Below, piece by piece: positions 593-27,937 of a stretch of DNA of 29,557 bases. The translations under genes were made by a program, and so were the position numbers. The number at the start of each line of letters is the position of its first letter. Positions within the stretch are counted from its first letter, which is position 1. The DNA is taken from positions 1-29,557 of IMG/VR virus record IMGVR_UViG_3300017765_000027. One strand, given 5' to 3'. The notes beneath the pieces are model-generated. The model was not told the origin of the DNA, searched no databases, and was given only the letters and a program-made list of their open reading frames with translations. This DNA comes from a virus.

Positions 593-3500
593 TTAAAATG
601 CGCCCGCGAAGGGTTGGTAATCTTTAAATTGAGCGTCACCTTTTATTAAATCTTCTAATCTTTGTGCACTTGGGCCTAGTAAACTTGTGTAGAACTCATC
701 CCCAAACCTTCCTGCTTCAAACATAGGGAATAACATAGTCCATGCTCCAAATGCTCCAGAACGGTCAGCGGCCTCTAGTAAATACTCACCATAACCCATT
801 TCATTTGTTCTAAATTTACTAAAATCAAAAACACCTGCCTCAGTGTTTGAATTAAAGTCTACTGTTCCTGAAAGAGGAGAAAGTAAAAATTTTAATAGCT
901 CACGTAGTTCCATACCTACCATTGCTAATGGTAATAGTGAAGTAAGGGCTAAAACTGCAGGTAACGCAGCAGCAGGTATCCTACCTTCCCGACCATAGGT
1001 ACTTTGAACATTTCTAATTACACCACCTATAATATTCTTACCATACGCGTAGAAGAATGATTTAAGTTGGAATATCAAAGCTGTGTATGGGTTAGAAGCC
1101 CAACCCGGTCTTTCTGCAGCATTCGGACGTACAACCGATTCTTCGGTAAATCTAGCTATCGCATCTTGCACTTCTCTATGTTGAGGGTCGCTAAAATCCC
1201 AATCAGAGTCTTGCGCTGCTTTTATTTGTTCCGGTGTAACTTGTAGCTCAGCTAAATAAGCTTTTGATTTAGCAGAGTTGTCATTAGCATGTTTAATAAG
1301 AAACTGTCGGCCCATACCAGCAGCAAAAATTCTTGTGAATCTTGTGTACCATTCTAGTCCAGTAAATTTAAAAAACTGTTGGGTATAGTATTTTGTTCCT
1401 TCTGTCATATAACCCAACTCTCCGGCATTAATGTACATTTGTGAAATAGAATCAAAGCCAATTACACCTACCTCACGCGCAAACTGTTCTAACTCTTTTC
1501 TATTTGCCCAAGTATCTTTTACTGAGTTTATAAAAGTACTACTAAAAATACTCATTTCTTTAGATCGTAATGCTGGGCCAGCTAAATCTGGTAAAGAAGC
1601 AACAGTAGCAAAAGTTAAATATGTCATAACATTTAAAGCCAATAGATAACTTTGTACAGTCCTTAACCAGCCGGGCATATTCATACCCGCTCTTCCTAAC
1701 ATAGCTTGTACTGCTTTTCTTGCGCGTCCTCTATCTCTATCGTTGTCTATTCGATTAATTAAAATTTCTGCTGCTCTAGGACCAAAATAAATTACACCAT
1801 CTTGTTTTTTATCTAATTGGTTTGAATTATTTGCAATATCTTTTTTAGTTATTTTTACACGAACTTTTTTCTTAAATTCTATTTTTTTAACATTCTCAGA
1901 AATATATTTTCGGACTGCGTGGTGCGCAGGAATAATCAAATCACCAATACCTTCTATGTTACGTAAGTCAGCGTTATTGCTGATGTTTATAAAAAGAGGT
2001 CGTCTATCTTTTTGCATACCAATAGATAAGTCTGCAGCTCCTTCTGCTTCTATAGCATCAAGACTTTCATCATATAAAACCATTTTATCTACTGCATTCC
2101 TTAGTTCTTCTGTAGTAGATTTAGGGTTGTATTTTTTCAAAACTTTTACTAAAGCTTCTCTTGCTTCGGGTTCTGCAGCTAACTTAGCTATGTCAAACTG
2201 CCTAGTAAAGAAAGTTATATTTTTTTGAACTTTAGGTTTTTTAGGATTTATCTCATTAGGTAAAATATAATCATCATAAAACTTTTCAAAATACTTAAGA
2301 ACATCTAAGGCTTTGCCTCCATCTACTTGTACTTCATTACCATCCTTATCTATTACTACAAGTTTATTAGCTGCATTAGGCCTTTCTTCTAATGGCAGAG
2401 CGGCTAGTTGTTCAGCTCCTTCTAGAATACTATCAATATTAGCTAAATCTTCTTGTGTGGGATCTTTAGTAATATTAAAAATTTTATAAAAATCATTAAT
2501 GTATCTGTACTGTACTACAGGGTGGTAGTTAAAGAAGCCGGTATCTTCTACAGTTTGAGATCTAGAGTAAAGAGCTTTACCTAGTTCTGGGGATACCAAA
2601 CGTAAAAAGTTATCTGCTGGAGCTAAGATGTACACTAAGAATTTGTAAATATCATTAGCTGCTTCGCTTTTTAAAATTTTCTTAATTAAAGCTTCAAAAC
2701 GAGTAGCATTCTTTTTACCTACTGCTTTTTGTACAATATCAGCACTGCCTTGGACCCAATTATCAATATCTTTAGACTCGGTAACTGATATACCTATGTT
2801 CTCTCTATTAAGACCTCGTTTAACCGCTTCTATTACCCCAAAAGCATAATCGTTAAATACTGGATTTGTGTCAAGCCTACCTATTTGAAATTCGCTTAAG
2901 GTATTAAATAAAACACGCACTTTTCTTGCTAAAGCTGTAAAGTAAGAACGCACAGTTTTTTTATTTCTGTTTTCTATACCTACAAACTCACTTCGCAATT
3001 GCATAAGAGTTTTGGGTAATTGTTCTTTCCAAATAGTGTTATCTTGAGTATGTGTTATTTTTCTATTACCTGTATCTAATAAAGCTTTTCTATGGTCGGC
3101 GTTTTGTTCTAAGGAAGCCTTAATTAAATCTTTCATTAACTTAAGGTTAGTAGCTCTGTTTTCTTTTAGGAAACCTTTAATTTTTACATTACCCGTCCCC
3201 CAACGTGGATTGTTGTAAATTTTTTCATCAAATTTCCCTGATTTAAGAGTTTGATAAGCATGCTCAACACTTTGGAATTGGACTCCAGAATTTTCATTAG
3301 TAGATTTTTGAAACTTAGAAAATGTTTTTCTATCATACTTTTCTCCGCCCTCTACTACTCCAGTAACTTTAAATCTAAATGGACGTGCTTTAAGATTACT
3401 TAAGTCAGTATTTTGATTTGCGCCAGCATAAATGTTTACAGGTGTTCTTTCTGTAGCAATTTCTCTAGGTAAAGTCTCTTTAACTGTTCCTTCTTGTTCT

Positions 3501-6500
3501 AATAAAAATGCGCTTGCTTTATCTGCATACCACTCTTCAAATGGGAAAGCTCTGTCTTGATAATTATATCCGGGCTCGCCCCTTACTTCTCTAGTAAATA
3601 ATGCAAAAGACTCATCAGCATAAGCTCTATACAAAGCTTCTCCTTTTTTAAAATCTGCTTCGGTAATCCCAAGGTCTTCTATAAATTCTTCACTACCATA
3701 CCGTCCACCTCGTTCTTCCGAAAGAAATCTACTAAGTCCAAGTCTTGCACTCTCAAATTTAAATAATACATGTCCTAATTCATGCGCAAGTGCATAATTC
3801 ATAAAAGTGCTTTTAGCAGCATTTTGGACAAGGGGGTCTTGATCTTGTAACTGGTTTTCTATAAAAGCAGAATCTGGGTTAAGAACTACAAACGCATATT
3901 TTGGTAGTCCTTTAAGTGGTCCGTCATTATGCATTACACTTAAAACAGATGCGGGTTGGCCCGAAGCCCTATTACTATTCTGCATATTCCTAACTACCAT
4001 ATTTAAAGGTGCACCAGTTGTAGTTTTCATGTCGGTTGGAAAATTAACTTCATCATCTAAACCTAAAACAAACACTTTTGTCGTTACTCCAAAACCTTTC
4101 ATTTTTTCAGACAATTTACTAATAAAACGTTCACCAGAGGTATCGCCTACATCTTTAGTAAATTTTGGATCTTTAATATCAAAAAGATTTGCAATCCCTT
4201 GACTTACTTTTATTTCTCCCAACTCCATGTCTATTGCGTCTGGGTCGGTTTCAAATTTAGTATTAAATACAGGTGTTCCTTTGTACGCTGCGCCTTCTTG
4301 CCCTTTAACTTTTACAGGGGGTTGCGCTAAGATTATTCCTTGTGCTAACTGCGGAAAAATATCCATTAGCATTTTGTTACCTAAATCTGTTTGTTCTACA
4401 GTTGCGGCTACCTCACTTATGGGTGTTTTTTCCATAGGAATGCTACGAGGTTTCGCCATGGTATAAGAAGAAGCTCTTGAACCTGCGCCGTTTAAAACTT
4501 CTATATTGTTATCTCTTATAAAGTTGGTTATTGTCGCTGCTGAAGTTCCGGGATTAACAATTAAAAAAGGTTTACCAAGTTCTTCAGCAAACTTAACGGT
4601 TAGTCGAGAACCGCTGCCGAGTGACCCATCTTCTTTAGTCAAAATAATAGTACCGTCAGAATCTTCAACGTTTTTTCTAGTTCTTGGTGGGTACTCTGAG
4701 GATTCTCCTTCTACTACATTAAACTGAGGCCCTAAAGAAAGACTTACTCCACCTTCTACTTTAAAACCTTTTGGAGCAGTACCACCAGTTTCTAAACCCA
4801 TCGCTTTTGCCATATAAAGAAAAAACTGGTCACCACCAAGTTGCCCACCTGATATTATTCTTTTTAATGGTGTTTTTTCATTTAATTTATCTAAACTACT
4901 TTGTTCTGCTTCTGTTAAAGTTTTACCGTCTTGTACTTTCTTCAATAGAGCTGCTTGTCTTTTTCGATCTTTTCTAGGTTGTTCCTCTTTTTCTAGTCTT
5001 AAACGCATTTTTTGTTGCTCTTCCGCTGCTTGCGCTTGTCTTTGTAAACTTACAGGGTCTCTTTCTAAAGACGAATCAATTGGGGGTGGAGACAATGTAG
5101 CACTTTCAAACCTTGCATCGCCTCGTAAACTCATTTCGCTTGGGATTAAAGGGTAGCGTTTTTCTTTTTGTGCCTCGGTTCCTTCTAAAACTAAATCTTT
5201 AGATTCTGTTACAAAAATTTTCTTACCATTTCTATATTGAGGTACTGCATGTCTGACTGGAGGAAATCCAATAGTTTCTTGCGGGGGTTGCGCTCCTAAA
5301 GGACCTTGAAAATCTTGGTCATCCCCGACAGCTTCTCTCATATCTTGATCTCCACCGAGAGGTTTTTCTAAATCAACTTTCTTGAAATCTCCAAACTCAG
5401 TGTTCAACTCATATTGTAAATTGTTGTACTGATACTCTAACTTTGTTAACTGTCTACCGATTGATTTTTGTCGCTTAATTAAACTTCCACGTTCTTTTTC
5501 GGATATACCACGATTTTTTATTTGGGTCTCTAAATTTGCGTATAGTTTGCTAACCGGCGCTATCTCTGCTTCTAAGTCTGCTAACTCATCCAATCTGCTG
5601 GTTAAGCTTTTAATACCCCTTGTAGGTATGGTAAATAAAGACTCGCTACCACCTTCTTCTATATATCTTTTACGAGCTAGACTATTAGCAAGGGCGTTTA
5701 TGTCAGATTTATCAACAAATATTCCAGCTGTAGTAGCAAACCCTATTCCACCTAGCTCTTGTTTTACATCTTTTAAGATATCTAAATATTTTTGAAATTC
5801 TAAGGAACTTACCTCTCTCGCTTCTATCGATCCAGTTAAAGAAAATTGTTGTAGCTCGATTGGACTAAGTAATTGTGCAGGTTTAGTTGGGTCTATTCTT
5901 CTATAAAACATCGGTACATCTGCTAAATTTTGACCCTCAGTACTTACGAGTTTTGTTTCATTAGTCATTGGTGTGTAGAGGTCTTCTTTCATAACCACTT
6001 CAAACCCATACTTTTTAAACTCCGCAAAAATTTCGGGCACCATAGTCGCTAAAGCAATGTTATAGGCTCTAGTTCTATTACCTCCTACACTTTGTAAGAG
6101 CTCTTCTATACTCATAGTAAAATCTTGTTTTATTTGAGGAAAGATTTTTACTGCTTGAGTTAATAAAGTATATAAATTAATAGCTACATCATTCCCAGCA
6201 AAATTAACTTCTTTATCTCCATACCCTATAGTGGCACCCGCTTCTGCATTCGTACCTCTTATTTTAAAATAGGAACTAGCCTGTGATACCTCACCCCCGC
6301 CTGTCGTAGATAAAAATTTAAAACCTTCTATAACTGCTGTTTCAACTAAATCTAAAACTCTAGCTTCTACAGTTTGCGGCTCAAAGGTACCAAAAACATA
6401 AGCATTGGCATCGTCGGGATCTTGAATAATTGTTAAATCAGGACCAATCTCTGGGTCTGTACCAGCTCGGCTATCTCGTTGCCTAAAGTATTCTCTTAAT

Positions 6501-8842
6501 AAACTTCTACTATACGTCTGCATTCTAGGAGAATTTATATCTGTAATTCCTAACTCTGTCCTCTCTTGTTCAGTAAGAGAGTCAAAGTACCTTTGACGTA
6601 AATCTATTAACTCTTGGTCTTCAGTAGAAAACTCCCCTGTTTCTTCATTTACTTTTGGTTGATAAGTTGTTTTTTTATATTTTCTAGCATCAGTTCTTAC
6701 AACTCCTCCCTTTGTTTTTTTATCCCCACCTTTTTTTAATTTATCTAATCTTCTTTTTTGAGAAAGGGTCAACCCCCCTTCTTTTTCAAGTTTTTTTAAT
6801 TGTTGTAGTTCCGTTTCAGCACGTAGTAATACTTCAGGTTGCGCAGTTAATCTAGCGTCTTCTAATTGAGCACCAAACAACCCCCCACTCTGCTGTTCTG
6901 ATAACCTTTCAAGAATCTCTTCAATCGGTTCACCTGTTCTTTGCGATTCTTCTTGAGCTACTTTATATACTTCAAAAGGGCTTAACCCAGACAAAGAAGC
7001 AGAATCTCCTTCATTATCATCAAATGCTTCTGTTACGTCTATCTCATCTAAAGATGGCTCATTTTCAAAGTTCATATTATTTATATCTAAGTCAGCTGTC
7101 GTAAATACTCTTACGTTAGCTTCAGGATACTTAGCTTGAAGTTTGCTTCTTTCTTCTTGTATTTGAAATTGGTTAACTTCTTTAGTGGCAATAACACGCC
7201 CATCAGCATTAAAAACTTTAATTGTGTGAGTAGCATTGTCTACTACATCGCTAAGTTCTTCACCATCCAAAGCTTCAATTACTGCATCTCTAAACGCTAC
7301 ATTTCTTCTTGTTTTTTCTTCCTTACTTATGACATTTGCGTCGTCAGCCGCAATATTCGCTTGAAATAAATTATTAGCTTTTTTCATTGCCTCTGGAGTA
7401 CCAACTACTACTCCACCTTTATATGGTACAGCTACAGTCCTATCCCCAAAATTTACCTCTGGATACATATCTTGGTAAGTTTCAACTCTTGATTGTGGTA
7501 GAAACATAACTTGTTTTGGAGATCCAACTTCAGCTTGGACTATTTCAATAGTTTTTTCTAAAGCATCAGTATTACCTGCTTCATTTATTATTTGTGCTTG
7601 AAAATCAATTTGATCAGCTTTACCTCTTGCCATAGCATCGGAAACTTTACTCATAATTGGGCTTACTGCTCCTCCCACTGCTCCTCGAGCACCTCCAGCA
7701 AAAAACCCAGCAAAAGCAGCTTCGGCTAACCTTAATTTAGCTTCTTCATTCGTATAGTTAGGGTCAATAGACATTCTTTGGGCTATACCTAAACCTTCTT
7801 GGCCTACCTCAGTAATACCTTCAACAGCACCTGACCCAATAAAACCTTTTCCTATCTCTCTAATAGCAGAAGAAAAAATATTCTTTTTTGGTCCAGAATA
7901 TAAATCTAAAAAGGCTTGTTCTTTTTCAGTTAGTTCTTTTTTATTAATTTTCTTTTGAAAAATAACGTAAGCCTTTTTTTCATTTTTTGTTAAGTTCTGT
8001 ACTCCAAAAGTTTGTGCTTTTCTATCTAAGGCAACTAAAGGACTTTTTTTCAAAGAAGCTTTTAAAAAAGCATTAGCAAAAATAGTTTCAGAGGCAGTAC
8101 CTAATACTGCTTGTGGAATACCTAATAGTGCTGCCTGTGCTGCTTCAGCACGGGTTAACTCCATACCAGCTTCTTGAAATTCAGAGGCGGACTGAGAGCT
8201 ACCTACCACGTATTCTTGACCAAAAGCTCCTGCGATACCCCCACGTTTTGCCCATTTTGCATACCCAAGACCTTCATGTATCAATACTGCTTCTTCCGGA
8301 GTAAGTTTAAGACCTTTGTCTTTTTTCTTAATTGCCTCTTTTAACAACAGGTCTAGAGGTTTTTTAGTAAGAGTCCTAGCTCCAAATTTTGCTAACATAC
8401 CAACACCAGCCCCAGCTAAACCAGAACTAAGTGAGCTTACCATCATAGGAGTAAATTGACCTAAAGCTTTTGTTACTTGAGTAAAAAAACCACCAAGAGT
8501 AGGTTCTTCAAGAAAATCTTCAAAGGGTTGTATTTGATTTAACAGGTCGCTGGATATAGCATCATAACTTTCTGCAATCTCAAGATTCTTTTGAGCTGCT
8601 TCATCAAAACCAGTTAACATTTGGCCAACTGCTTGGAACCTATTAATATCAGCTCCTAACTGCGCAGTACCACCACGTATAGCAGTGCTAAAAATGTCTC
8701 CAAAACCTAAAGGCCCGGGTTGTAAAGTATTTTCAGAAGGAGCAAGTTCTGGTTTCCTTAATTCTTTTGCAAGGGTTCTGCTTTGGCGTTCTTCAATACC
8801 TTCCGAATCTCCAAACAGGGCTTCACTTAAAGTTTTAGCCAT
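593..8842 (-). CDS. Giant polyvalent virion/ejection protein with SLOG, zincin and NADAR domains
   Basis: A 2749-residue protein. Residues about 1-430 are Gly/Ala-rich with several hydrophobic helices and an EGITEVGQEG motif, typical of the N-termini of phage polyvalent proteins. Residues about 1325-1456 match the YpsA/putative molybdenum-carrier branch of the SLOG fold: IISGGQLGGDQ near 1328, a TGGTAPKGF motif, RTRKNVEDSDGTIIL, then GKPFLIV. A zincin motif HELGH lies at 1687-1691, with a possible third zinc ligand in EEWYADKASAF near 1769. Residues about 1800-1953 match NADAR (YbiA-like, DUF1768): SVEHAYQTLKSGKF with Glu1860, ALLDTGNRKITHTQD, then W. The last 500 residues hold several membrane-prone helices and an EAGRFGDEFY motif near 2705, like the PLxRFG end of these proteins. 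NADAR enzymes hydrolyse ADP-ribose from modified substrates, including guanine in DNA; polyvalent proteins are thought to be ejected to counter host defences. I saw no lytic transglycosylase or RNA polymerase motif. The ribosome binding site is weak. Confidence 0.85.
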   Translation of the reverse strand: MAKTLSEALFGDSEGIEERQSRTLAKELRKPELAPSENTLQPGPLGFGDIFSTAIRGGTAQLGADINRFQAVGQMLTGFDEAAQKNLEIAESYDAISSDLLNQIQPFEDFLEEPTLGGFFTQVTKALGQFTPMMVSSLSSGLAGAGVGMLAKFGARTLTKKPLDLLLKEAIKKKDKGLKLTPEEAVLIHEGLGYAKWAKRGGIAGAFGQEYVVGSSQSASEFQEAGMELTRAEAAQAALLGIPQAVLGTASETIFANAFLKASLKKSPLVALDRKAQTFGVQNLTKNEKKAYVIFQKKINKKELTEKEQAFLDLYSGPKKNIFSSAIREIGKGFIGSGAVEGITEVGQEGLGIAQRMSIDPNYTNEEAKLRLAEAAFAGFFAGGARGAVGGAVSPIMSKVSDAMARGKADQIDFQAQIINEAGNTDALEKTIEIVQAEVGSPKQVMFLPQSRVETYQDMYPEVNFGDRTVAVPYKGGVVVGTPEAMKKANNLFQANIAADDANVISKEEKTRRNVAFRDAVIEALDGEELSDVVDNATHTIKVFNADGRVIATKEVNQFQIQEERSKLQAKYPEANVRVFTTADLDINNMNFENEPSLDEIDVTEAFDDNEGDSASLSGLSPFEVYKVAQEESQRTGEPIEEILERLSEQQSGGLFGAQLEDARLTAQPEVLLRAETELQQLKKLEKEGGLTLSQKRRLDKLKKGGDKKTKGGVVRTDARKYKKTTYQPKVNEETGEFSTEDQELIDLRQRYFDSLTEQERTELGITDINSPRMQTYSRSLLREYFRQRDSRAGTDPEIGPDLTIIQDPDDANAYVFGTFEPQTVEARVLDLVETAVIEGFKFLSTTGGGEVSQASSYFKIRGTNAEAGATIGYGDKEVNFAGNDVAINLYTLLTQAVKIFPQIKQDFTMSIEELLQSVGGNRTRAYNIALATMVPEIFAEFKKYGFEVVMKEDLYTPMTNETKLVSTEGQNLADVPMFYRRIDPTKPAQLLSPIELQQFSLTGSIEAREVSSLEFQKYLDILKDVKQELGGIGFATTAGIFVDKSDINALANSLARKRYIEEGGSESLFTIPTRGIKSLTSRLDELADLEAEIAPVSKLYANLETQIKNRGISEKERGSLIKRQKSIGRQLTKLEYQYNNLQYELNTEFGDFKKVDLEKPLGGDQDMREAVGDDQDFQGPLGAQPPQETIGFPPVRHAVPQYRNGKKIFVTESKDLVLEGTEAQKEKRYPLIPSEMSLRGDARFESATLSPPPIDSSLERDPVSLQRQAQAAEEQQKMRLRLEKEEQPRKDRKRQAALLKKVQDGKTLTEAEQSSLDKLNEKTPLKRIISGGQLGGDQFFLYMAKAMGLETGGTAPKGFKVEGGVSLSLGPQFNVVEGESSEYPPRTRKNVEDSDGTIILTKEDGSLGSGSRLTVKFAEELGKPFLIVNPGTSAATITNFIRDNNIEVLNGAGSRASSYTMAKPRSIPMEKTPISEVAATVEQTDLGNKMLMDIFPQLAQGIILAQPPVKVKGQEGAAYKGTPVFNTKFETDPDAIDMELGEIKVSQGIANLFDIKDPKFTKDVGDTSGERFISKLSEKMKGFGVTTKVFVLGLDDEVNFPTDMKTTTGAPLNMVVRNMQNSNRASGQPASVLSVMHNDGPLKGLPKYAFVVLNPDSAFIENQLQDQDPLVQNAAKSTFMNYALAHELGHVLFKFESARLGLSRFLSEERGGRYGSEEFIEDLGITEADFKKGEALYRAYADESFALFTREVRGEPGYNYQDRAFPFEEWYADKASAFLLEQEGTVKETLPREIATERTPVNIYAGANQNTDLSNLKARPFRFKVTGVVEGGEKYDRKTFSKFQKSTNENSGVQFQSVEHAYQTLKSGKFDEKIYNNPRWGTGNVKIKGFLKENRATNLKLMKDLIKASLEQNADHRKALLDTGNRKITHTQDNTIWKEQLPKTLMQLRSEFVGIENRNKKTVRSYFTALARKVRVLFNTLSEFQIGRLDTNPVFNDYAFGVIEAVKRGLNRENIGISVTESKDIDNWVQGSADIVQKAVGKKNATRFEALIKKILKSEAANDIYKFLVYILAPADNFLRLVSPELGKALYSRSQTVEDTGFFNYHPVVQYRYINDFYKIFNITKDPTQEDLANIDSILEGAEQLAALPLEERPNAANKLVVIDKDGNEVQVDGGKALDVLKYFEKFYDDYILPNEINPKKPKVQKNITFFTRQFDIAKLAAEPEAREALVKVLKKYNPKSTTEELRNAVDKMVLYDESLDAIEAEGAADLSIGMQKDRRPLFINISNNADLRNIEGIGDLIIPAHHAVRKYISENVKKIEFKKKVRVKITKKDIANNSNQLDKKQDGVIYFGPRAAEILINRIDNDRDRGRARKAVQAMLGRAGMNMPGWLRTVQSYLLALNVMTYLTFATVASLPDLAGPALRSKEMSIFSSTFINSVKDTWANRKELEQFAREVGVIGFDSISQMYINAGELGYMTEGTKYYTQQFFKFTGLEWYTRFTRIFAAGMGRQFLIKHANDNSAKSKAYLAELQVTPEQIKAAQDSDWDFSDPQHREVQDAIARFTEESVVRPNAAERPGWASNPYTALIFQLKSFFYAYGKNIIGGVIRNVQSTYGREGRIPAAALPAVLALTSLLPLAMVGMELRELLKFLLSPLSGTVDFNSNTEAGVFDFSKFRTNEMGYGEYLLEAADRSGAFGAWTMLFPMFEAGRFGDEFYTSLLGPSAQRLEDLIKGDAQFKDYQPFAGAF

Positions 8843-8848
8843 AAGTAC

Positions 8849-11410
8849 TTATTGAGAAGACCCCATCCTCATTTGACTTTGTTCTTTACTTACAGCAACA
8901 AGCGCTCTTTTGAATTGATCAGCAGCCTCTCCTTCAAGATCCTTTGCCTCCAGAAGCACGTCATTTATTCTTATACCAGTAGCCTTTCCGGTTGCTTCGT
9001 CAATTACTACTTTTCCAGGTATCTCCCGACCACCAATTAGGAAAGTACCGCCACGGGCAAACCCAAAAGAAGAAATCGTTTGCCACCAGTTAGGTTCGAC
9101 CTCTGCAATCCAACGTTTTATAAAGTCTATATAATTTGATTCATATACCTTTTGGGCTTTTACTCTATCAGCACCGTTTGCTGTGCTCTCCCAAGCAGCT
9201 CTCATTCTATTCAACTGCGTTGTGCTATTTCTAAAGAAGTCCTCTGAATCCATCTCGCCTTCACTGAACTTCATAATATACTTGTTAACTTCTGTTTCTG
9301 CGGCTCTGAAGCCTGGGGACAGTTCTGCATCAGTCGCCGCTTGGTACGTTTCAGTAGCTGCTTTAAGCATATCTGATTTGGCTTTAGCTGCATTAATCCC
9401 GTCACTATTAAACATACCTGAGGTTATATACTCCCCAAGATTAATTCCTGCAAGTTGTACGGTTAGGGGATCCCCCGCCTTTACCGTAGACATAGCAGCC
9501 ATTATATATTTATTTGCAAGGTCTAGTTTTTGCTTAGTTGTAGAAAGTTGTCTTAAATCTCCACCAGTATCTGCTAACTCTTTTATTAAAGTTTTTTGGT
9601 CTTCATCTGAAATATTAAGTGTAGCTGCTAACTTTTGAATTCCCTCAATATCATTGTTTGCCACAAGTTCTTTAAACTCCTCTACCTGATCTTTAGATAT
9701 AACCTTGTTTAAAGTAACTACAGCTTCATTGCTTAACTTATTACCAACAAGTTTTTTGGTATCTAGTTTTCCATCAACGCTATATTTATTAGCAAAATCT
9801 TGTGGATTTAAATTTTCAAAATCTGCTCTAATTTCAGGGTCTTTAAACATAGCTTGTATATTATTTTTACCCTCAGAACTATCTAAATTAAAAAACTCTT
9901 TGTAGTTTTTATTGTTCTTAATCCACGTTCTAGCCCCCTCTTTATCAAGCCCTCTAACGCCTGGTTTGACTTCGGCTAGTTTATCTTGGACTGTAGTAAC
10001 TACATTATTGTTAGATATTTGTCCAATAAGGGCAAACGCTTCTTTCTTTTGGGGTTCATCAAAGCTATCCCATTGTTCTTTAGAGAAATAATTTTCTATA
10101 TTATTTGCTGTGAAATCCATCTCCATTAGGTTGCTTCTTATTGTGTCCTTTGCTTTAGCTTGTTTTGTGGCTATACCCCGGTTAAGTAATTTATCTAAAT
10201 CTGAAATAAGTGTCTCAAACGCATTCGGTGCGAAACCACCAGCCCCGGGCCCAATACCAGCTCTTGCTAAAAAAGGACGGCCTCTTTCCCCAGTTAAATA
10301 ATCTTTTGTTAGTCTTAGTGAATTTAACAATGAGTCACCTTTTAATTCTTGTGGACCAAACATACTATATTTACCCGCATCTACTAAAAACCCTGTTTCA
10401 CTAAAATTATTTTCATCTACGTCAATTACTTGGGGAGATTCCAGAAAGTTAGCTACAGCTACTTTATAATCAGTCTTACCATCTTTACCTCTAGATTGTT
10501 CTAATATTTGTGCCCATTGTTGAGTTACAGAATCTGTACCTTCTCCAAGGACATTTGTAGTGTTCGATATTTGCTCTTTTCGTTTTGCTATTTCTTTTTC
10601 ATTATATTTTGCAGCTAGCGCGTCTATATTAGCTAACGTGGTTTCTCGATCTGTAGCAGGGTCTAAAGCGCCTGCATAGTATTGCATCAATTCATCAGGG
10701 TCTAGGTCTAAACTTTGAATTTTATTAAAAAGGTCTCTAGCTATTGCACTGCCGGGTGCCATATTGTCTAAGTTTACAACTTTAGTATCATACGCCGCGT
10801 TTATGTGATCGGCCGTAATATACCCGTCCATGGGAAGCCCCCCATCTCTTTGATTTGCCCCATCGGTTGTAATTTGGTTTTCTCTAACTTTAAAACCCCC
10901 GTCTTCCCCAGGTGCCATAGTTATAACTCTCGGGTCAAAATACGCCTTACCATCTAAAAATTGTGCGGAATTAATTAAATCAGATACACTTATTCTTTTA
11001 AAATCTTCATTTCCAGATTGTTTTAAAAGTTCTTTAAACATATCTGGATGTCTTTCATCTAAAAGGTCATCAGACAATACCGGAACAATATCTTTCATGA
11101 AATCAGTTCCCTGTCCTTCGCTTTTACGCTTTTGAAAACCCACATACCACTCACCAAAGTCCATCCCAGTTACATTACTCCTATAACCTACTGGGTCTAC
11201 TCCAGTTTTTTCATATTCTTCAAACATTGCATCTGCCGCTTTCTCAGCATCTGTCTTTGCAGTCATCATACTAAATATCTCGGCCCTACTAGCCTCTTTA
11301 GCTTTAGCTTCACTAGTAAAATTTACAGTACCAAATACTTGTCCAAGTTGTTGACCTAGCGTAGTTTCACTCTGTAGGGTAAAGGAACCGTCTGGTCTTT
11401 TTATTGCCAT
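8849..11410 (-). CDS. Putative internal virion / ejection protein (853 residues)
   Basis: A largely helical, charged protein of 853 residues without a signal peptide, clear membrane segment or catalytic motif that I can recognise. It begins MAIKRPDGSFTLQSE and its start overlaps the stop of the upstream gene (TAATG). It ends six bases before the giant polyvalent protein. Large helical proteins between the tail connectors and a giant ejection protein are usually inner-core or DNA-ejection proteins in short-tailed phages, so that is the likely role. The middle third contains many Asp/Asn/Lys-rich segments with repeated LxxLxxxL spacing, fitting an elongated helical protein. Function is inferred from order and composition, not from a recognised family. 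Confidence 0.6.
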   Translation of the reverse strand: MAIKRPDGSFTLQSETTLGQQLGQVFGTVNFTSEAKAKEASRAEIFSMMTAKTDAEKAADAMFEEYEKTGVDPVGYRSNVTGMDFGEWYVGFQKRKSEGQGTDFMKDIVPVLSDDLLDERHPDMFKELLKQSGNEDFKRISVSDLINSAQFLDGKAYFDPRVITMAPGEDGGFKVRENQITTDGANQRDGGLPMDGYITADHINAAYDTKVVNLDNMAPGSAIARDLFNKIQSLDLDPDELMQYYAGALDPATDRETTLANIDALAAKYNEKEIAKRKEQISNTTNVLGEGTDSVTQQWAQILEQSRGKDGKTDYKVAVANFLESPQVIDVDENNFSETGFLVDAGKYSMFGPQELKGDSLLNSLRLTKDYLTGERGRPFLARAGIGPGAGGFAPNAFETLISDLDKLLNRGIATKQAKAKDTIRSNLMEMDFTANNIENYFSKEQWDSFDEPQKKEAFALIGQISNNNVVTTVQDKLAEVKPGVRGLDKEGARTWIKNNKNYKEFFNLDSSEGKNNIQAMFKDPEIRADFENLNPQDFANKYSVDGKLDTKKLVGNKLSNEAVVTLNKVISKDQVEEFKELVANNDIEGIQKLAATLNISDEDQKTLIKELADTGGDLRQLSTTKQKLDLANKYIMAAMSTVKAGDPLTVQLAGINLGEYITSGMFNSDGINAAKAKSDMLKAATETYQAATDAELSPGFRAAETEVNKYIMKFSEGEMDSEDFFRNSTTQLNRMRAAWESTANGADRVKAQKVYESNYIDFIKRWIAEVEPNWWQTISSFGFARGGTFLIGGREIPGKVVIDEATGKATGIRINDVLLEAKDLEGEAADQFKRALVAVSKEQSQMRMGSSQ

Positions 11411-12210
11411 TATAACTTCCCGTAATTAACCATTAAGTACCCAGAGCCGTGTGTAGTAACCGCTTCTGGTTTTTGTATTTTTATTTCTTGTGCAAGCACT
11501 CCATATTGAGGTAAATCACCTGCGCCTAATTCTATAGCTTTCTTACTCCACTCCCAAGTGTAAATATTATAATTACCTTCTTTATGGCTAAAGTTAATAT
11601 CTTTCTTCAAACGCATATCAGAAAGGATGCTTAAAGGAGCACTTATAATACTGGCAAACATATTAGTTCTAGCATTTTTATAAGCTACTCTATCTCTTTC
11701 GTATTGGTTTCTTCTCGCTACTGCGTTTTCTGCGGCAACCCCTAAGCCTTGTAAAGAACTCCTATTTAAACCTTGCCCAATATTTATTAAATCACTTAAA
11801 ACTTTTTGATTCTGGTCTAATTGAGATAGTCTAGCTTCATTTAAACCGCCCGCTAAATTAATAGCTCCTCCTCTTTGTATAGCTCTCTGTCTTTCTTGAC
11901 TTAAAGCTGCAGTAGACTCAAAACCAAACCTTTCTCTGTTTCTCCTATTCACATCCTCTGCAATTCTCTGTTGTTGTGCTACATCTTGTGGAACTGAATC
12001 TATTAAACTAGTGTCAGTTTGAGTACGCTGAACTAAACTAGTTTCATAAGGTTTGAAATCACGCTCATATCTATCAGCCTGCCTTTTCGTAACATCAGCA
12101 AATACCTTATCAGGGTCTTTTACTTCTTCGGGGTTGCCGCCGAATCGCGGGTCGTTTCGTATCGCCTGTATAGCGGATTGTGAAATATTGGCAAAATTAT
12201 AACTATACAT
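11410..12210 (-). CDS. Internal virion protein with C-terminal Peptidase_S74-like chaperone motif
   Basis: A 266-residue protein in two parts. Residues about 1-195 are helical, polar and Gln/Arg-rich (for example LSQERQRAIQRGGAINLAGG near residue 104). Residues about 198-266 read SDMRLKKDINF, then YTWEWSKKA, YGVLAQEIK and finally VNYGKL. This order is the signature of the intramolecular chaperone of endosialidase-type tail spikes and fibres (Peptidase_S74), which helps trimerisation and cuts itself off. The usual segment is longer than the roughly 70 residues here, and the N-terminal part does not look like a beta-helical fibre. It is translationally coupled to the 853-residue protein (TAATG). 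It could be a tail-fibre adaptor rather than an inner-core protein. Confidence 0.6.
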   Translation of the reverse strand: MYSYNFANISQSAIQAIRNDPRFGGNPEEVKDPDKVFADVTKRQADRYERDFKPYETSLVQRTQTDTSLIDSVPQDVAQQQRIAEDVNRRNRERFGFESTAALSQERQRAIQRGGAINLAGGLNEARLSQLDQNQKVLSDLINIGQGLNRSSLQGLGVAAENAVARRNQYERDRVAYKNARTNMFASIISAPLSILSDMRLKKDINFSHKEGNYNIYTWEWSKKAIELGAGDLPQYGVLAQEIKIQKPEAVTTHGSGYLMVNYGKL

Positions 12211-12215
12211 AATAC

Positions 12216-12773
12216 CTATCCTGTATACCTATTAGAGAAAGGGTTTTCCGGATTCATGTTTGACCATGTTTGGGCCCCAGATTTACTAGCCGCACCCCCA
12301 ACTTTACCTATAGCTCCCATAATATTTGTTGCTCTGCTCAATTTAGCAGTCATTCTATTTAAATCTTCGGATCTAGCTAATTTAGATGCTTGCGCTAAAC
12401 CACTACCTGCGTCAGCTTGTTGACCCCTAGCAGTAGCTAAAACCCCAAGTTGTTGATTAGCTTTTACATCTGAGGCAACTACATTAGCATTTAAAATATT
12501 ACCGACTGCGCCTAAAGCCCTATCTGCTGCAGTATCTACACCGGAAGCTATGCCTAAGTTAGGTCCAGCTCCTGTAGTTGCTTGCATAGTATCTGCCTGT
12601 GCACGACCACGTAAAGTAGCATGAGTATCAGTTTTTAATGACTCGTCACGCATTTGCCTTAATAAAGGATCATAGGTCTGTTCAAAATATTTTTGATCAG
12701 ACCTTGCTATAGCCGCTTGAGTTTTTTCAGTCTCACTTGGCTTATATTCTTCCGCTTTTGGTTTACTACCCAT
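12216..12773 (-). CDS. Small Ala-rich helical virion protein, unrecognised
   Basis: A 185-residue Ala/Gln/Thr-rich protein beginning MGSKPKAEEYKPSE, with a helical region at residues about 15-60 and a Gly/Ala-rich tail containing IMGAIGKVGGAAS near 150-162. No enzyme motif is visible. It starts at a TAATG junction with the GNAT-like gene and ends five bases before the S74-containing gene, so it belongs to the same operon. Short Ala-rich helical proteins at this place in short-tailed phages are often internal virion (ejection) proteins. I do not recognise the family, and the role is inferred from position. Confidence 0.55.
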   Translation of the reverse strand: MGSKPKAEEYKPSETEKTQAAIARSDQKYFEQTYDPLLRQMRDESLKTDTHATLRGRAQADTMQATTGAGPNLGIASGVDTAADRALGAVGNILNANVVASDVKANQQLGVLATARGQQADAGSGLAQASKLARSEDLNRMTAKLSRATNIMGAIGKVGGAASKSGAQTWSNMNPENPFSNRYTG

Positions 12774-13225
12774 TAAACTTCCTTTCTATAAACTGTTGTT
12801 ACTGCTTTAAATCCGTGCTTTTTAGCCGCTCTACTCCATCCAGAACGGTCGGAATGAAACTCCATTCCTGTTATGCTGGTGTTTTGTATTAAGCCCTCTA
12901 AGAACTCTACACCTGCACCTATTATATTATACCCGGGTCTACTATAAGCAACCCAAATATATAAAGTTTTTTCTCCTCCAGCATCATCTAAAATCGATAC
13001 TATAACAAAGCCTGCATAGTAATTATCCTCATACACCATGTATAACTCAGAACTACCTTTTCGCAGTGCTGCATATACATCAGCGGGTATCCAATCAGCG
13101 TAAGACTTTTCGGCTACTTTTTTAAGATCTGGTTCTATTGTATTGTTAGCAACTTTTACATCCTCTACAGGGATGTATTCAAAAACCTTACCATTAATAG
13201 TCCAATTCTTTGCCATATCGTCCAT
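12773..13225 (-). CDS. GNAT-like acetyltransferase fold protein
   Basis: About 150 residues from the chosen ATG (MDDMAKNWTING). It has a GNAT-like order: a helix near residues 35-55, the strand YMVYEDNYYAGFVIVS, the strand KTLYIWVAYSRPGYNIIGAGVEFLEGLI, where GNAT enzymes have the strand and helix holding acetyl-CoA, and a C-terminal strand ending FKAVTTVYRKEV. The canonical Q/RxxGxG/A loop is only loosely present (RPGYNIIGAG), so activity is uncertain. An upstream in-frame GTG at 13252 is possible, but the ATG at 13225 has an AAGGA-type ribosome binding site six bases upstream. It overlaps the end of the preceding adaptor gene by about 32 bases. Proteins of this type sit among virion genes in several marine phages; substrate unknown. 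Confidence 0.55.
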   Translation of the reverse strand: MDDMAKNWTINGKVFEYIPVEDVKVANNTIEPDLKKVAEKSYADWIPADVYAALRKGSSELYMVYEDNYYAGFVIVSILDDAGGEKTLYIWVAYSRPGYNIIGAGVEFLEGLIQNTSITGMEFHSDRSGWSRAAKKHGFKAVTTVYRKEV

Positions 13226-13877
13226 ACCTCTTCCTTGGGGATAAACCTGCACCTTTGTATTTTACTGTTCTTTTCACCCCAATATTACCACCTCTACCTC
13301 TTAACTCTGCATCAGATACCTGAGCTTGAAATAAGTTAAAATAGTCCGCAGCAGCCACTGGGTCTGTCCATTCTTTACTAGGCATTCTTAACAGCCTATA
13401 AACAGCACCATAAATAATGCCATCTCGGTAATCATTACTAAAATTAGTATCTATACTATTAGTAGTTCTACTGGGTTTTAAAGCTACGTTTAACAATAAA
13501 CCATTTACATTTTTTGCGTTAGGAACTGGTACTAACCAAAAAGTATCCGGTGTTTTTTGTAAGTACACAGTTGGTATACCTGATTTATCTCGCCAATCAG
13601 GATAATTTAGCTCTAGGCTTCTTGGACTAATTGGGTCTAAATCATTTCCATCATAAGTAGCCCACAATATTTGGTGTACATCTGTACCACTTGGTTGGTC
13701 AAACTCATACTCATAAGTTCCCGATATCGTAGTTATTGGGTCTAAATCATGAGTATAAGCCTTACTTTTTTCACAAAGCTCTATAGTTGCAGAACGTAAA
13801 GTAGTTTCTATCAACGAATCAGGACAACCCGGAACGTATGGTAAAACGTCTTTAATTAATGAATCAAAACTAGCCAC
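13194..13877 (-). CDS. Head-tail connector / tail stopper-like protein
   Basis: A 227-residue protein using a GTG start at 13877, supported by AAGGAG six bases upstream. It begins MASFDSLIKDVLPYVPGCP, and its helical N-terminus (residues 1-35) followed by a beta-rich middle (GTYEYEFDQPSGTDVHQI near 53-70, FWLVPVPNA near 112-120) and a helical end resembles short phage connector proteins that follow the gp4/DUF6682-type adaptor. The Arg/Lys-rich tail (SPRKRYGRYGK) may touch DNA. It overlaps the preceding adaptor gene by eight bases. In this position the product usually closes the portal or joins it to the tail. The exact family is not certain. Confidence 0.6.
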   Translation of the reverse strand: MASFDSLIKDVLPYVPGCPDSLIETTLRSATIELCEKSKAYTHDLDPITTISGTYEYEFDQPSGTDVHQILWATYDGNDLDPISPRSLELNYPDWRDKSGIPTVYLQKTPDTFWLVPVPNAKNVNGLLLNVALKPSRTTNSIDTNFSNDYRDGIIYGAVYRLLRMPSKEWTDPVAAADYFNLFQAQVSDAELRGRGGNIGVKRTVKYKGAGLSPRKRYGRYGKELDY

Positions 13878-14556
13878 TTGATACTCCTTGGTCAGGTTGT
13901 ACAGCTTGTTGAACTACTCCACCTCTAGCTAAACTTGCGCTAAATAATTGATAATAACTACCAGCACGTTGTTGGTTTCCAGCAAACTCACCATCTTTTA
14001 AATAAGCCCTATACAAAACAAAATTAATTAGTGCATTTGCAAAGATATCATCCACTTGTATTAAATCAGTATTTGAACCAATACTAGTAGGATTTTTAGA
14101 GTACACAACTTCTACATAAGCATTACCAGAAACTCCAGGGTACACATAAAATACTCTAGGGTCGTCTCCATCAAAAATATAATGTTTAACCTCAGTACCG
14201 TGTGTAGCATCGCCAGTTACAGTTGGGTCATGCCAATTAGGTTCTGTACTATTTAAAGCATCTTCTGATACCACCCGAATACTCCTACCACCGGTAGCGC
14301 TTGCAGAGGTGCTTGCAACATTCCTTACTAATTTTACAAGCCTTAGTCCATCAGCTGGTATGGTTTGTTCCGTACCAGTAGTTAACTGTACATTAGAATG
14401 TGTAGCAGTAGCATCAGGACGAATATTAGCAATCTCTCTCTGTGCATCACTTAAATAATCAAATAGTTCACCGTCGGTCCAACGCACACTAGTATTATCC
14501 TGAAGTACGTTACGTACCCTGGATAATATGTGTTGTGCTTGTAACGTACCAGCCAT
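13870..14556 (-). CDS. Phage adaptor protein, DUF6682-like
   Basis: A 228-residue protein beginning MAGTLQAQHILSRVRNVLQD. The N-terminal helix, the WTDGELFDYLSDAQREIANIRPDA block at about 26-49, the beta segments ending VKHYIFDGDDPRVFYVYPG near 124-142 and the helical ending with FANALINFVLYRAYLKDGEF near 168-187 match the family annotated as phage adaptor DUF6682, which is found just after the capsid genes in short-tailed phages. It probably forms the ring under the portal. It starts immediately next to the stop of the upstream 75-residue gene. Family recognition is by eye. Confidence 0.7.
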   Translation of the reverse strand: MAGTLQAQHILSRVRNVLQDNTSVRWTDGELFDYLSDAQREIANIRPDATATHSNVQLTTGTEQTIPADGLRLVKLVRNVASTSASATGGRSIRVVSEDALNSTEPNWHDPTVTGDATHGTEVKHYIFDGDDPRVFYVYPGVSGNAYVEVVYSKNPTSIGSNTDLIQVDDIFANALINFVLYRAYLKDGEFAGNQQRAGSYYQLFSASLARGGVVQQAVQPDQGVSSG

Positions 14557-14837: not shown

Positions 14838-15974
14838 TTAAAATGCGCAATCTACTCTGATTACACCAAAGTCTTCATTCTGACCAGAAATGTCAGAGTT
14901 GTAGACTGGTTTTTTAAGACCCATGATCTTACCGATAGAAATACCGTTTTGGTTTCCATAGTCGAAAGTGTCTTCAACTATTTCAGGCAAACCGATATCT
15001 GCCATAGCAAGAGCTTGAGCTCCACAGAATATGTTAGCAGCGAAATCAACATCACTACCAGATCCACCTTTCTGAGTACCTGAGGTACCTTGAGAAGTGT
15101 TTGGTACGTGTCTGAATTCGTGAACCATAACGCCGTCAACCATTAAGCTAGAAGATCCAGCAAATAGTTCGTTGTTTGGTCCTCTGATACCAGCGCTTCT
15201 TACGTTTGATAAGAAGTCAGAATCTAGTTTCAGATCAGCCATTACTTGTGGAGTAACAAAAAGATGATACATCTCTTCATTACCATTTCCTCTCATACCT
15301 CTAATGTATTGGTCTTTAGCAAATGCTTTCAACTCAACGATAGTGCTATAAGACATTTTGTCAGTAGCAGCTAAAGCAGAAGTGTCACCAGCAACTAAAC
15401 CATTAGTTGCGTCTACTCTTCTGTGTCTGTTAGAAGTAGGAGCAGTTACATCACCATTAAAGGCAAGGTCAGACAAGTTAGCACCTGAGCCTAGTACTGG
15501 TCTAGTCGCAGCAGAACCACCGATATTGTTGTTCTTTCTGTTGTAGTCAATACCAGCCAAAGTTAAGAATGCAACTTGGTCTAGTCTGTCCGCCATTGCG
15601 TATGCAAGTGCGTCTCTTGAGTGCTCACGGAAGTTGACAACAGATTTTTGATCCGCTAAACGACCAGATAGTCTGTTCGCAAATCTTAATTGATCTAATT
15701 GTACAACGATGTCGAATGCTCTTAATGCTTCTTCATTACCTTCGAGAGTGTTGTCACCAACGATACCATCACCAGTCATGTCAGCTAAGAGTGTTAATAC
15801 AGCTCTAGCTCCTTTTTCTGATTGAGTAAGTTCATTTATTCTCTGAACCATGGCGTTGGGGCCACTACCCGCAAATTGGTTAATGAAGGACATGTTTCGA
15901 GCTACTCGCCAAAAATCACGAGACCAGATAGTAAGCTGTTCACTGTTCAACGCGCTGAAATTTGTATTAGCCAT
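14838..15974 (-). CDS. Major capsid protein, N4-gp56 family
   Basis: A 378-residue protein that builds the icosahedral head. Its N-terminus (NSEQLTIWSRDFWRVARN near residues 9-26), the FAGSGPNAMVQRINELT segment near 35-51, the GDGIVGDNTLEGNEEALR block near 69-86, and the later FREHSRDALAYAMADRLDQ and AFAKDQYIRGMRGN segments match the N4-gp56/DUF4043 capsid family with HK97 fold. Length is about normal for the family. A strong GGAGG ribosome binding site lies four bases before the ATG. Upstream is a 212-base structured gap, and downstream is a strong terminator, so the gene may be expressed as its own high-level unit. It follows a scaffold gene, as usual. Confidence 0.9.
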   Translation of the reverse strand: MANTNFSALNSEQLTIWSRDFWRVARNMSFINQFAGSGPNAMVQRINELTQSEKGARAVLTLLADMTGDGIVGDNTLEGNEEALRAFDIVVQLDQLRFANRLSGRLADQKSVVNFREHSRDALAYAMADRLDQVAFLTLAGIDYNRKNNNIGGSAATRPVLGSGANLSDLAFNGDVTAPTSNRHRRVDATNGLVAGDTSALAATDKMSYSTIVELKAFAKDQYIRGMRGNGNEEMYHLFVTPQVMADLKLDSDFLSNVRSAGIRGPNNELFAGSSSLMVDGVMVHEFRHVPNTSQGTSGTQKGGSGSDVDFAANIFCGAQALAMADIGLPEIVEDTFDYGNQNGISIGKIMGLKKPVYNSDISGQNEDFGVIRVDCAF

Positions 15975-16186: not shown

Positions 16187-17227
16187 TTAGTCAAAGTCAC
16201 CACGCATTCTGCGTAAAGTTTCTTCTGGTAGTGCACCAAATTCATCATCAGACAACACATTTATGTCTACTATTTTCTTATTTTGAGTAGACTCACCTTT
16301 CATTTGAGGTGGTTGTGACTGTGAAGCTTCTACTTTTTTCTTGACTGTAGCTTTTGCTTTTTTATCTTGTACAGCTTGAGTAAGTTTAGGAGCAGGATCT
16401 GATGCTTCTGAACCGTCACCTTGTAATAACTCAGGTTTTTTACTTAAGAGAGTTACTTCAGTAGCTTTTGCTAAAGAATCAGCAGCTCCATACCCTTGAT
16501 ATATAAAAGCATCTCGTAATTCCATAACTTCATTAGTTAATTTTTCATCATAAGACTTACTTTTTTCATTAAATATAGGAAACACATCCATTATTTCAGT
16601 AGCCTTTTGATTTAACTCATGTAGCTCACGATCTTGTTGTACAGTTTGACCCATTTTACTTTGCATTTCAGACATAACCTGTTCTCTTTCAGCAGTTCTT
16701 ATCTCGTTTCTTAACAAAGCAGCTTTTTCAGTCTCACCTTCTAAAACTAAGTCTTGATAATCTTTTTCCTTCGCAACAAAGTCATACTCAGGAGCAGCAT
16801 CTTCAGCAGGTTTTTCCTCCATGTCTTGAAGTCTTTTTTGCATTTCTTTATTTTTTGCAAGTACTTCGTCAAGACGAGACTTAGGCACCATAGGTGCTTT
16901 TGGTTCTTCTACCTGTTCATCTTCCTCCACTGCTTCCACAGGTTGCTCATCATCTGTTGGTACTGGGTCTTCGCTTGCTTCAACTGGTTGTTCTTCTGTT
17001 GCTTCAGTTGTTGTTTCTTCAACTTGCTCCTCTGCAATTTCTTCTGTTGTTTCTTCTGCAACAGGTTCTGCTTCTGTTGTTTCTTCTTCTTGAGCTTCTT
17101 CAACTTCTTCCTCCGTGTTTTCAAAGTTCATATCTACTTGAAAAGGTTGTACATCCTCTTCGGTTTTTGCATCAGCACCGGGCATTCCCTCAAATACTAA
17201 TTCTTCTGTGTTTTTATCTTCAGCCAT
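16187..17227 (-). CDS. Capsid scaffolding protein
   Basis: A 346-residue, strongly acidic protein lying between portal and capsid genes, the usual place for a scaffold. Residues about 30-115 are low-complexity Glu/Thr/Val/Pro repeats. Residues about 118-200 form a long charged coiled coil (VLAKNKEMQKRLQDMEEKPAED and onward). The C-terminus (about 285-346) is basic and then short helical, ending DEFGALPEETLRRMRGDFD, as expected for the part that binds the capsid shell. An AGGAGG sequence precedes the ATG, and the start overlaps the stop of the portal gene (TAATG). No protease motif is visible. Confidence 0.8.
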   Translation of the reverse strand: MAEDKNTEELVFEGMPGADAKTEEDVQPFQVDMNFENTEEEVEEAQEEETTEAEPVAEETTEEIAEEQVEETTTEATEEQPVEASEDPVPTDDEQPVEAVEEDEQVEEPKAPMVPKSRLDEVLAKNKEMQKRLQDMEEKPAEDAAPEYDFVAKEKDYQDLVLEGETEKAALLRNEIRTAEREQVMSEMQSKMGQTVQQDRELHELNQKATEIMDVFPIFNEKSKSYDEKLTNEVMELRDAFIYQGYGAADSLAKATEVTLLSKKPELLQGDGSEASDPAPKLTQAVQDKKAKATVKKKVEASQSQPPQMKGESTQNKKIVDINVLSDDEFGALPEETLRRMRGDFD

Positions 17228-20978: not shown

Positions 20979-21210
20979 CAATCTCTAGCTCTGCTTCAGT
21001 TTCAATAACTACTCTAGCTCCGCAGGGTAGGATAGGTTTATCTGTACCACTATAACGAACAATAGAATCACCTTTTATAGTTACTTCATGACAATAGGTA
21101 TTGTTCTTACCTTCTTTCACAGTTATAACTGGCTCATTCGTACCATGTTTTAAGTTAGCCTTTATTTTATGTTGGTTAACGTGAATGTATTTAATCTTTC
21201 TTTTCTCCAT
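20959..21210 (-). CDS. Small hypothetical protein between terminase subunits
   Basis: An 83-residue protein beginning MEKRKIKYIHVNQHKIKAN. It is beta-rich, with alternating hydrophobic and charged residues (EPVITVKEGKN, HEVTIKGDSIVRYSG, GARVVIETEAELEID), and lacks any catalytic motif I recognise. It overlaps the small terminase gene at its start by 20 bases and the large terminase gene at its end, so the three are expressed together. Its place suggests a packaging accessory or a decoration protein, but this is only inference. Confidence 0.6.
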   Translation of the reverse strand: MEKRKIKYIHVNQHKIKANLKHGTNEPVITVKEGKNNTYCHEVTIKGDSIVRYSGTDKPILPCGARVVIETEAELEIDGNKKD

Positions 21211-21706
21211 CCTTTTTAGGCATAAGATATTGGTTATCAGTTCCCGCTATCTTGAGTAATTCAGAATCTGGTAGTTTTTCTAGTTGTTCTACAGTTCTAT
21301 CCAGATTGATGTTGATTTGTGTAGCATGCTCTGGAGCAAATAGACCGTGGAGCTTGCACAATGAATCGGTGATAACTTTCTCTTCTGTCGCTGTTACCGA
21401 TTTACGGTGCGCTTCTAAGTACATGCTTGTCGCTGTTTGTTTATCAAACTTAATTTCTTCTTTAAACTCTTCGCGCATCTTAGCAATCATCTTTTGTACT
21501 GCTGGTTTTTTAAATACTTTATAAACATGCTCATTATCCCTATATCCAGCTGCGCGTCCCGCTGCAGCTTTCGACATGCCACGGAGATGAAAAAGGATGA
21601 GGCGTTCTTCTTGAACACTTAGCTCATTAAGCTTGACATCGACATAGGGATAATGAGACTGAAGCTCGGCCCTTTCTTGTTCAAAATTTTGGTCTTTATC
21701 AGTCAT
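21191..21706 (-). CDS. terS: Terminase small subunit
   Basis: A 171-residue protein. Residues about 28-62 hold a helix-turn-helix typical of small terminases (LSVQEERLILFHLRGMSKAAAGRAAGY), followed by helical oligomerisation segments (PAVQKMIAKMREEFKEEIKFDKQTATSMY and KVITDSLCKLHGLF) and a charged tail ending PKKDGEKKD. It recognises the packaging site in the phage genome and loads the large subunit. The start overlaps the HNH gene by eight bases. Position one small gene before the large terminase supports the call. Confidence 0.78.
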   Translation of the reverse strand: MTDKDQNFEQERAELQSHYPYVDVKLNELSVQEERLILFHLRGMSKAAAGRAAGYRDNEHVYKVFKKPAVQKMIAKMREEFKEEIKFDKQTATSMYLEAHRKSVTATEEKVITDSLCKLHGLFAPEHATQININLDRTVEQLEKLPDSELLKIAGTDNQYLMPKKDGEKKD

Positions 21707-22184: not shown

Positions 22185-22206
22185 GCTTGCCCACTGTAGC
22201 ACAAAT

Positions 22207-27923: not shown

Positions 27924-27937
27924 CAACGGAGAAAATT

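Follow-up and report, generated by a model that had tools for sequence, protein, structure and literature searches.

Comparison with related viral proteins showed that a giant protein encoded in the window, which is the whole 29,557-base stretch analysed here and an IMG/VR virus record classed as linear, is built on a conserved ejection-type scaffold (an N-terminal block, a zincin-type domain and a helical C-terminal block) with enzyme domains that vary between relatives. In the window protein the variable part consists of a SLOG domain and a NADAR domain. We propose with reasonable confidence that the protein serves a podovirus-like phage as its largest ejection protein and that its SLOG-NADAR cargo blunts ADP-ribose-based defence on entry.

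The gene is the 2749-aa open reading frame at 593..8842, which the preliminary description, made from the sequence alone, had reported without naming its strand. The ORF proved to be real and to lie on the minus strand: it contains no internal stop, and the orthologues L002-L011 share 88-100% identity with it. The plus-strand reading of 593-8842 was rejected for its stops throughout.

We examined the neighbourhood and found that the giant gene is the last of a late module of capsid, adaptor and ejection-like genes on the minus strand, that is, it lies beside delivery and virion genes as is expected of polyvalent proteins. Directly upstream of it is an 853-aa protein (8849..11410), a probable partner ejection protein judging by position, with relatives in sister contigs only (27% identity) and no match among isolated phages. 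It is preceded by a 266-aa protein (11410..12210) resembling DNA ejection proteins (phrog_6121, 4.5e-13; phrog_4287, 1.6e-9). An S74-type intramolecular chaperone domain, which is more familiar from tail fibres, terminates this ejection-like protein (Pfam Peptidase_S74, 5.7e-4, slightly under the cut-off). Further along the same strand are a conserved 185-aa protein of the same module (12216..12773), two SU10-type adaptors (13194-13877 and 13870-14556; Pfam SU10_adaptor, 4e-14 and 5e-35), the major capsid protein (14838..15974; Phage_capsid_3, 3.9e-41), a P22-type portal (17227-19329; P22_portal, 4.3e-121) and the large terminase (19329-20981; Terminase_6N, 3.3e-20). By portal, the closest isolated phages are Pseudomonas phage KPP25 and its relatives (39%). 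The late module is syntenic in about 40 clusters of relatives; among 40 other clusters, one adaptor was found in 35, a 124-aa downstream gene in 34, the 266-aa protein in 33 and the 185-aa protein near the giant gene in 29, counts that are bounded by the reach of each locus. Elsewhere in the window, an Endonuclease VII/HNH-like gene (21699-22202, minus strand; phrog_1035, 7e-25) lies directly upstream of the terminase genes, and an operon-like trio on the plus strand (26889-29556) comprises a MoxR-like AAA ATPase gene, a gene for a 256-aa protein and a DUF2201 putative metallopeptidase gene (7.8e-50).

The kinship of the protein itself is clearest at its C-terminus. The preliminary description held that residues 1955-2500 match nothing; instead, residues 1955-2749 form a conserved C-terminus related to virion structural proteins. 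This helical, ejection-protein-type block (residues 1956-2749; 596..2977, minus strand) matched phrog_30152, annotated 'virion structural protein', at 2.5e-18, as well as the C-termini of particle proteins of the KPP25 group, Aeromonas phage phiA008 and phage tf, and hhalign gave probabilities of 99.9% for phiR18 (KPP25 group) and 99.2% for tf. The phiA008 protein (UIS74281.1) also contains HELGH and FDEW motifs. One relative matched phrog_342, 'internal virion protein with endolysin domain', at 1.7e-8. A structure model of residues 1600-2749 (pLDDT 71, with much of the C-terminal part at 75-95) matched, in the viral structure library BFVD, the KPP25 'structural protein' (7e-16), proteins labelled 'large polyvalent protein associated domain' and, at E-values of 2.6e-7 to 2e-5 and TM-scores of about 0.27-0.37 by query length, T7-type podophage proteins named internal virion protein; nothing significant was returned by a PDB fold search with the same model. 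The proposed 'membrane-prone ends' hold for the C-terminal part, which has 19-residue stretches at 2399-2417 and 2624-2642, and fail for the N-terminus, where none was found at the same threshold.

Upstream, an N-terminal scaffold block (residues 41-420; 7583..8722, minus strand) was identified by BLAST in most of the 41 clusters, most absences coinciding with truncated loci or highly diverged sequences. A second region thought to lack matches, residues 430-1320, could be divided: the middle scaffold (residues 421-905; 6128..7582, minus strand) aligned with the sister proteins L026 and L032, so that about 421-900 is common to the sisters, while the clade-specific stretch of residues 906-1319 (4886..6127, minus strand) is mostly absent from them and indeed matched no family or fold, its structure model being weak. 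A model of residues 395-1480 reached a pLDDT of 56 and had no PDB match. What had been overlooked in the preliminary description, which was right about the domains, is that the C-terminal 'unknown' is the ejection scaffold and that the nearest relatives do without SLOG and NADAR.

Ejection proteins of this kind are thought to enter the host along with the DNA of short-tailed phages. KPP25 ORF088 (and its phiR18 counterpart) and tf gp51 share the homologous C-terminal block and the late-gene position, and the annotation of tf gp51 describes a particle protein resembling LUZ24 gp50; in LUZ24, nine virion proteins were detected by mass spectrometry, seven of which have close tf homologues (PMC3517423). 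They differ from the window protein in that neither tf gp51 nor the portion of the phiR18 protein examined has the HExGH...EEW zincin signature, and in that the KPP25-group and tf proteins showed no match to its SLOG or NADAR. T7 gp16 (internal virion protein D) is likewise the large last ejection protein of its module, and the fold of its T7-type relatives was matched by the C-terminal model; the transglycosylase of gp16 also has a parallel in the N-terminal lysozyme carried by relatives of the window protein. The window protein itself has no lysozyme, however, and is about twice as long as gp16. Homology to T7 gp16 by profile was rejected, as the hhalign score fell within the shuffled range. 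The virion RNA polymerase (vRNAP) of N4 is also encoded by the last gene of its ejection module and also combines a cargo enzyme, an HExxH domain and a large helical C-terminus (PMC12633501), but its cargo is an RNA polymerase instead of SLOG and NADAR. C-terminal homology to N4 vRNAP was rejected too (hhalign probability 0.5-2%), leaving only the HExxH motif in common. Taken together, the kinship to virion proteins and the place of the gene support the earlier claim of an ejected protein, and delivery with the virion into the host is very probable on this comparative evidence.

The domain motifs named in the preliminary description are present, with IISGGQLGGDQ starting at residue 1329, HELGH at 1687 and SVEHAYQTLK at 1858. 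In 2000 shuffles of the giant protein, loose forms of these motifs arose at rates of 0.65% (HExxH), 1.4% (GGxxGxD) and 0.2% (E[HQ]x[YF]QxxK). The joint presence of SLOG, zincin and NADAR domains in one polyvalent protein is supported by profile matches and by invariant zincin ligands, and both SLOG and NADAR matched solved structures. With the ejection-type C-terminus, the protein thus combines several disparate domains, as polyvalent proteins do.

The SLOG domain, of the circularly permuted YpsA type, spans residues 1320-1470 (4433..4885, minus strand). Pfam cpYpsA matched residues 1329-1461 at 7.5e-28 with 97.5 bits against a curated cut-off of 26.2, and PDB entry 3imk, a solved relative named putative molybdenum carrier, was matched at 5.4e-18. 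To our knowledge, this branch of SLOG has no proven substrate.

The zincin-type metallopeptidase domain was assigned to residues 1600-1795 (3458..4045, minus strand). It contains HELGH at residues 1687-1691 (3770..3784) and EEWYAD at 1769-1774 (3521..3538), in which E1770 is the likely third zinc ligand. H1687, E1688, G1690, H1691 and E1770 (H88, E89, G91, H92 and E171 of the fragment) were invariant in 35 sequences, giving the HExxH and the downstream acidic third ligand by which zincins are recognised. The claim of a zincin is supported by this HExGH...E pattern in relatives and not by Pfam, which found no zincin in the window protein; other family members weakly matched the metallopeptidase families M78 (2.8e-6), DUF4344 (8e-5) and DUF6782 (8e-5). 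Neither sequence nor fold searches of the PDB gave a significant match for the region, which was modelled at a pLDDT of about 70. Three members, L061, L070 and L085, have lost zinc ligands (HELGE, KELGN). They form one clade on the tree, and two of them are among the largest cargo-bearing members, indicating that cutting is not required in all members.

The NADAR domain (residues 1797-1953; 2984..3454, minus strand) separates the zincin from the C-terminal block. The evidence for it was weak when the window protein was used by itself, as Pfam gave E-values of 0.003 for the whole protein and 9.9e-5 for the piece alone, below the curated cut-off; a profile built from the window clade and four other lineages secured the assignment, matching E. 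coli YbiA (2b3w) at 3.2e-14 and the NADAR structure 8bau at 1.8e-4. NADAR was poorly predicted in the model of residues 1600-2749 (pLDDT mostly below 50). The probable cause is an alignment error that placed four distant NADAR rows on the zincin, and we therefore based the identity of NADAR on the family profile match. The catalytic Glu and Lys of NADAR (PMC11543638) correspond to E1860 and K1867, seven residues apart and invariant in the clade and in 37 relatives. Glu, Gln, Lys and His were invariant across these 37 non-redundant giant-protein NADARs, and the Glu, Lys and His together with the zinc ligands were invariant within the window clade. NADAR groups are separated by their last-strand residue, His in place of Glu/Asp marking the phage gp30.3-like group (PMC11125620). 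In the window protein this residue is H1931, of the phage type; 'TH' was found in all five scaffold lineages whose sequence extends to this position, and the column was invariant in the 37. The DarTG1 NADAR antitoxin (PMC11543638) belongs to the same superfamily and has the catalytic Glu and Lys, but DarT1-linked NADARs have Asp where the window NADAR has the gp30.3-like His. The features of a DarT1-linked antitoxin are thus lacking here, with His for Asp and no DarT among the window genes scanned.

A search with the NADAR profile returned 69 further viral NADAR ORFs, which are the closest relatives and therefore a biased sample; 40 of them were in ORFs of at least 600 aa, many above 3000. About 14 of these NADARs have SLOG-type motifs in the same ORF, several directly behind NADAR, and Pfam identified cpYpsA on the flanks of four of the 37 NADARs and YAcAr on those of one. 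In L131, L132, L135, L187 and others, NADAR is found in ORFs above 3000 aa in which the stretch examined did not reveal the C-terminal scaffold; giant-protein families besides this scaffold may also use NADAR cargo. On one contig (IMGVR_UViG_3300044724_004801, L154 and L062), the giant protein is without NADAR and a standalone 136-aa NADAR gene is located elsewhere.

To describe the family, two scans of viral contigs were combined, giving 93 sequences in 41 clusters, whose members have the N-terminal block, zincin and C-terminal block in common. The HExxH motif is separated from the C-terminal block by 60-95 residues in nearly all members and by 268-273 in the window clade, because NADAR is inserted between them there; other large spacings (L016, L084, L094) were ascribed to the start point of the BLAST match to the C-terminal block. 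Three sisters (L025, L026 and L032), with about 55% identity in the C-terminal block, could be aligned with the window protein over the whole length and have neither SLOG nor NADAR; in L026 and L032 the capsid protein shares 94% identity with that of the window. SLOG and NADAR were therefore either gained in the window clade or lost in the sisters. A second pair of filled and empty versions is L137, with NADAR, and L092, without it. An N-terminal lysozyme was identified in L057, L054, L050, L040 and L034, the first two of which also carry AlkB-type dioxygenase and DUF4326-like domains; L057 has in addition an ART-like segment, a likeness judged by eye where Pfam found none. NADAR is accompanied by a YAcAr-type SLOG in L061, by DUF4326 in L085 and L012, by a SLOG-like motif in L155, and by DUF4326 and an SGGAxGxD SLOG-like segment in L033. 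The SLOG-like domain of L033 (residues about 1010-1070 and 1357-1470) seems to be split by NADAR and DUF4326 or circularly permuted about them, with GGTGWAVQMA in the upstream half and SGGAIGVD in the downstream half. Each scaffold lineage with a recognised SLOG carries NADAR too, and the insertion site of NADAR differs between scaffold lineages. On a tree of the C-terminal block, a quick tree with some long branches, the minimum number of changes was nine for NADAR, five for DUF4326 and four each for SLOG and lysozyme. No relative was found in the plasmids searched, and relatives in the bacterial genomes searched were on two MAG contigs only.

Every tested domain is under purifying selection. 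Codon models of nine close sequences gave an omega of about 0.1 for NADAR and the C-terminus and about 0.4 for SLOG and zincin; for SLOG the value was 0.39, an omega of 1 being worse by 5.7 log units on a fixed tree. Positive selection on SLOG, hinted at by pairwise NG86 values of 0.5-1.6, was rejected since codon models fitting codon frequencies gave 0.39. Among the close relatives L003-L011, the domains fitted the whole-gene tree unevenly, with large likelihood losses on the fixed tree, which suggests recombination within the giant gene.

We propose the following mechanism. The giant protein would be packaged in the head and accompany the DNA into the host. Its C-terminal block would help to form the entry channel and reach the cytoplasm, by analogy with T7 ejection proteins (PMC8954989), and the adjoining zincin could cut the chain and free the enzymes, as proposed for polyvalent proteins (PMC5512222). 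NADAR might act on ADP-ribosylated guanine in the incoming DNA, or on a small signal molecule, and strip off the ADP-ribose, SLOG might bind or split an ADP-ribose-type signal, and ADP-ribose-based host defence would be blunted ahead of phage gene expression. Delivery in the virion would fit these roles, because both signal-based immunity and the ADP-ribosylation of DNA on entry come into play early. All NADARs tested, including one phage NADAR, remove ADP-ribose from guanine in DNA; the tested phage NADAR failed to protect cells from DarT1, however (PMC11125620), which counts against a counter-defence role. The window's His in place of the DarT1-linked Asp, the loss of zinc ligands in three members and the lack of a sequence-profile link to T7 gp16 or N4 vRNAP also speak against the mechanism. 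On balance we regard counter-defence by NADAR and SLOG as moderately probable from the domain assignments, and release of the cargo by the zincin as a tentative proposal that falls a little short of an even chance.

The role of the zincin is where alternatives come closest. It may instead be an assembly peptidase or a structural domain, so that an intact chain enters the host and the enzymes act while still attached to the channel, a reading that we consider a serious contender while still leaning against it. It would account for the three members that keep the domain but have lost zinc ligands, two of them with cargo, and it has a precedent in N4 vRNAP, which is packaged uncut with its HExxH before the helical C-terminus, a region needed for encapsidation (PMC5512222, PMC12633501); the invariance of the zinc ligands in 35 sequences speaks against it. 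Iyer et al. also named the option that a zincin acts as an effector (PMC5512222), and here it is the sole enzyme domain retained in nearly all members, so that it might itself cut a host protein with SLOG and NADAR as passengers or regulators. We find this improbable, since the domain has a fixed place beside the scaffold, unlike the swapped enzymes.

Other explanations concern the cargo. Even in an ejection protein, SLOG and NADAR could serve phage metabolism or repair, for instance of ADP-ribosylated RNA ends or damaged nucleotides: some NADAR members act on riboflavin intermediates and have been proposed to act in RNA repair (PMC9503650, PMC11125620), and the name of the solved SLOG relative points to molybdenum. 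Such functions would have little need for virion delivery or for frequent gain and loss (at least nine changes for NADAR and four for SLOG), and we judge this rather unlikely. A reading of the enzyme domains as functionless, decaying passengers is hardly credible given an omega below 1 in each tested domain (0.39 even for SLOG) and invariant catalytic residues, despite protein-level evolution about four times faster in SLOG and zincin than in NADAR and the C-terminus.

Several elements of this picture were already known, namely polyvalent proteins, the idea of processing by zincins and fusions of NADAR, SLOG and DUF4326 in phages. Polyvalent proteins of phages and conjugative elements, for which injection is presumed and zincin processing has been proposed (Iyer et al. 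2017, PMC5512222), resemble the window protein as giant multi-enzyme chains with the zincin as a common element. The main text of that study names neither NADAR nor SLOG, whereas the window protein has both, and here the swapping of cargo on one scaffold at an orthologous position was traced on a tree. The phage network of SLOG, NADAR and DUF4326 domains, which are fused to each other and proposed to disarm ADP-ribose-derived immune signals (PMC9503650), comprises the same three domain families as the present family; viral NADAR and SLOG are described there as typically standalone outside RNA-virus polyproteins, whereas here they are found inside ejection-type giant proteins. In the main texts of the open-access papers searched, we found neither NADAR-SLOG cargo inside an ejection-type protein nor empty and filled orthologues of one scaffold with repeated gain and loss.

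More generally, we suggest, as a tentative view that we hold at slightly less than even odds, that in a widespread family of short-tailed phages the largest ejection protein is a general carrier, with a peptidase beside the channel-forming part and swapped NADAR, SLOG, DUF4326, AlkB and ART-like enzymes acting from the start of infection. Because one scaffold occurs in both empty and filled versions, the idea of injected, functional cargo becomes directly testable, and the scaffold offers a route to further unknown enzymes through what is inserted into it. If the proposal is true, counter-defence enzymes would arrive as protein, before gene expression, in the very molecule that clears a path for the DNA.
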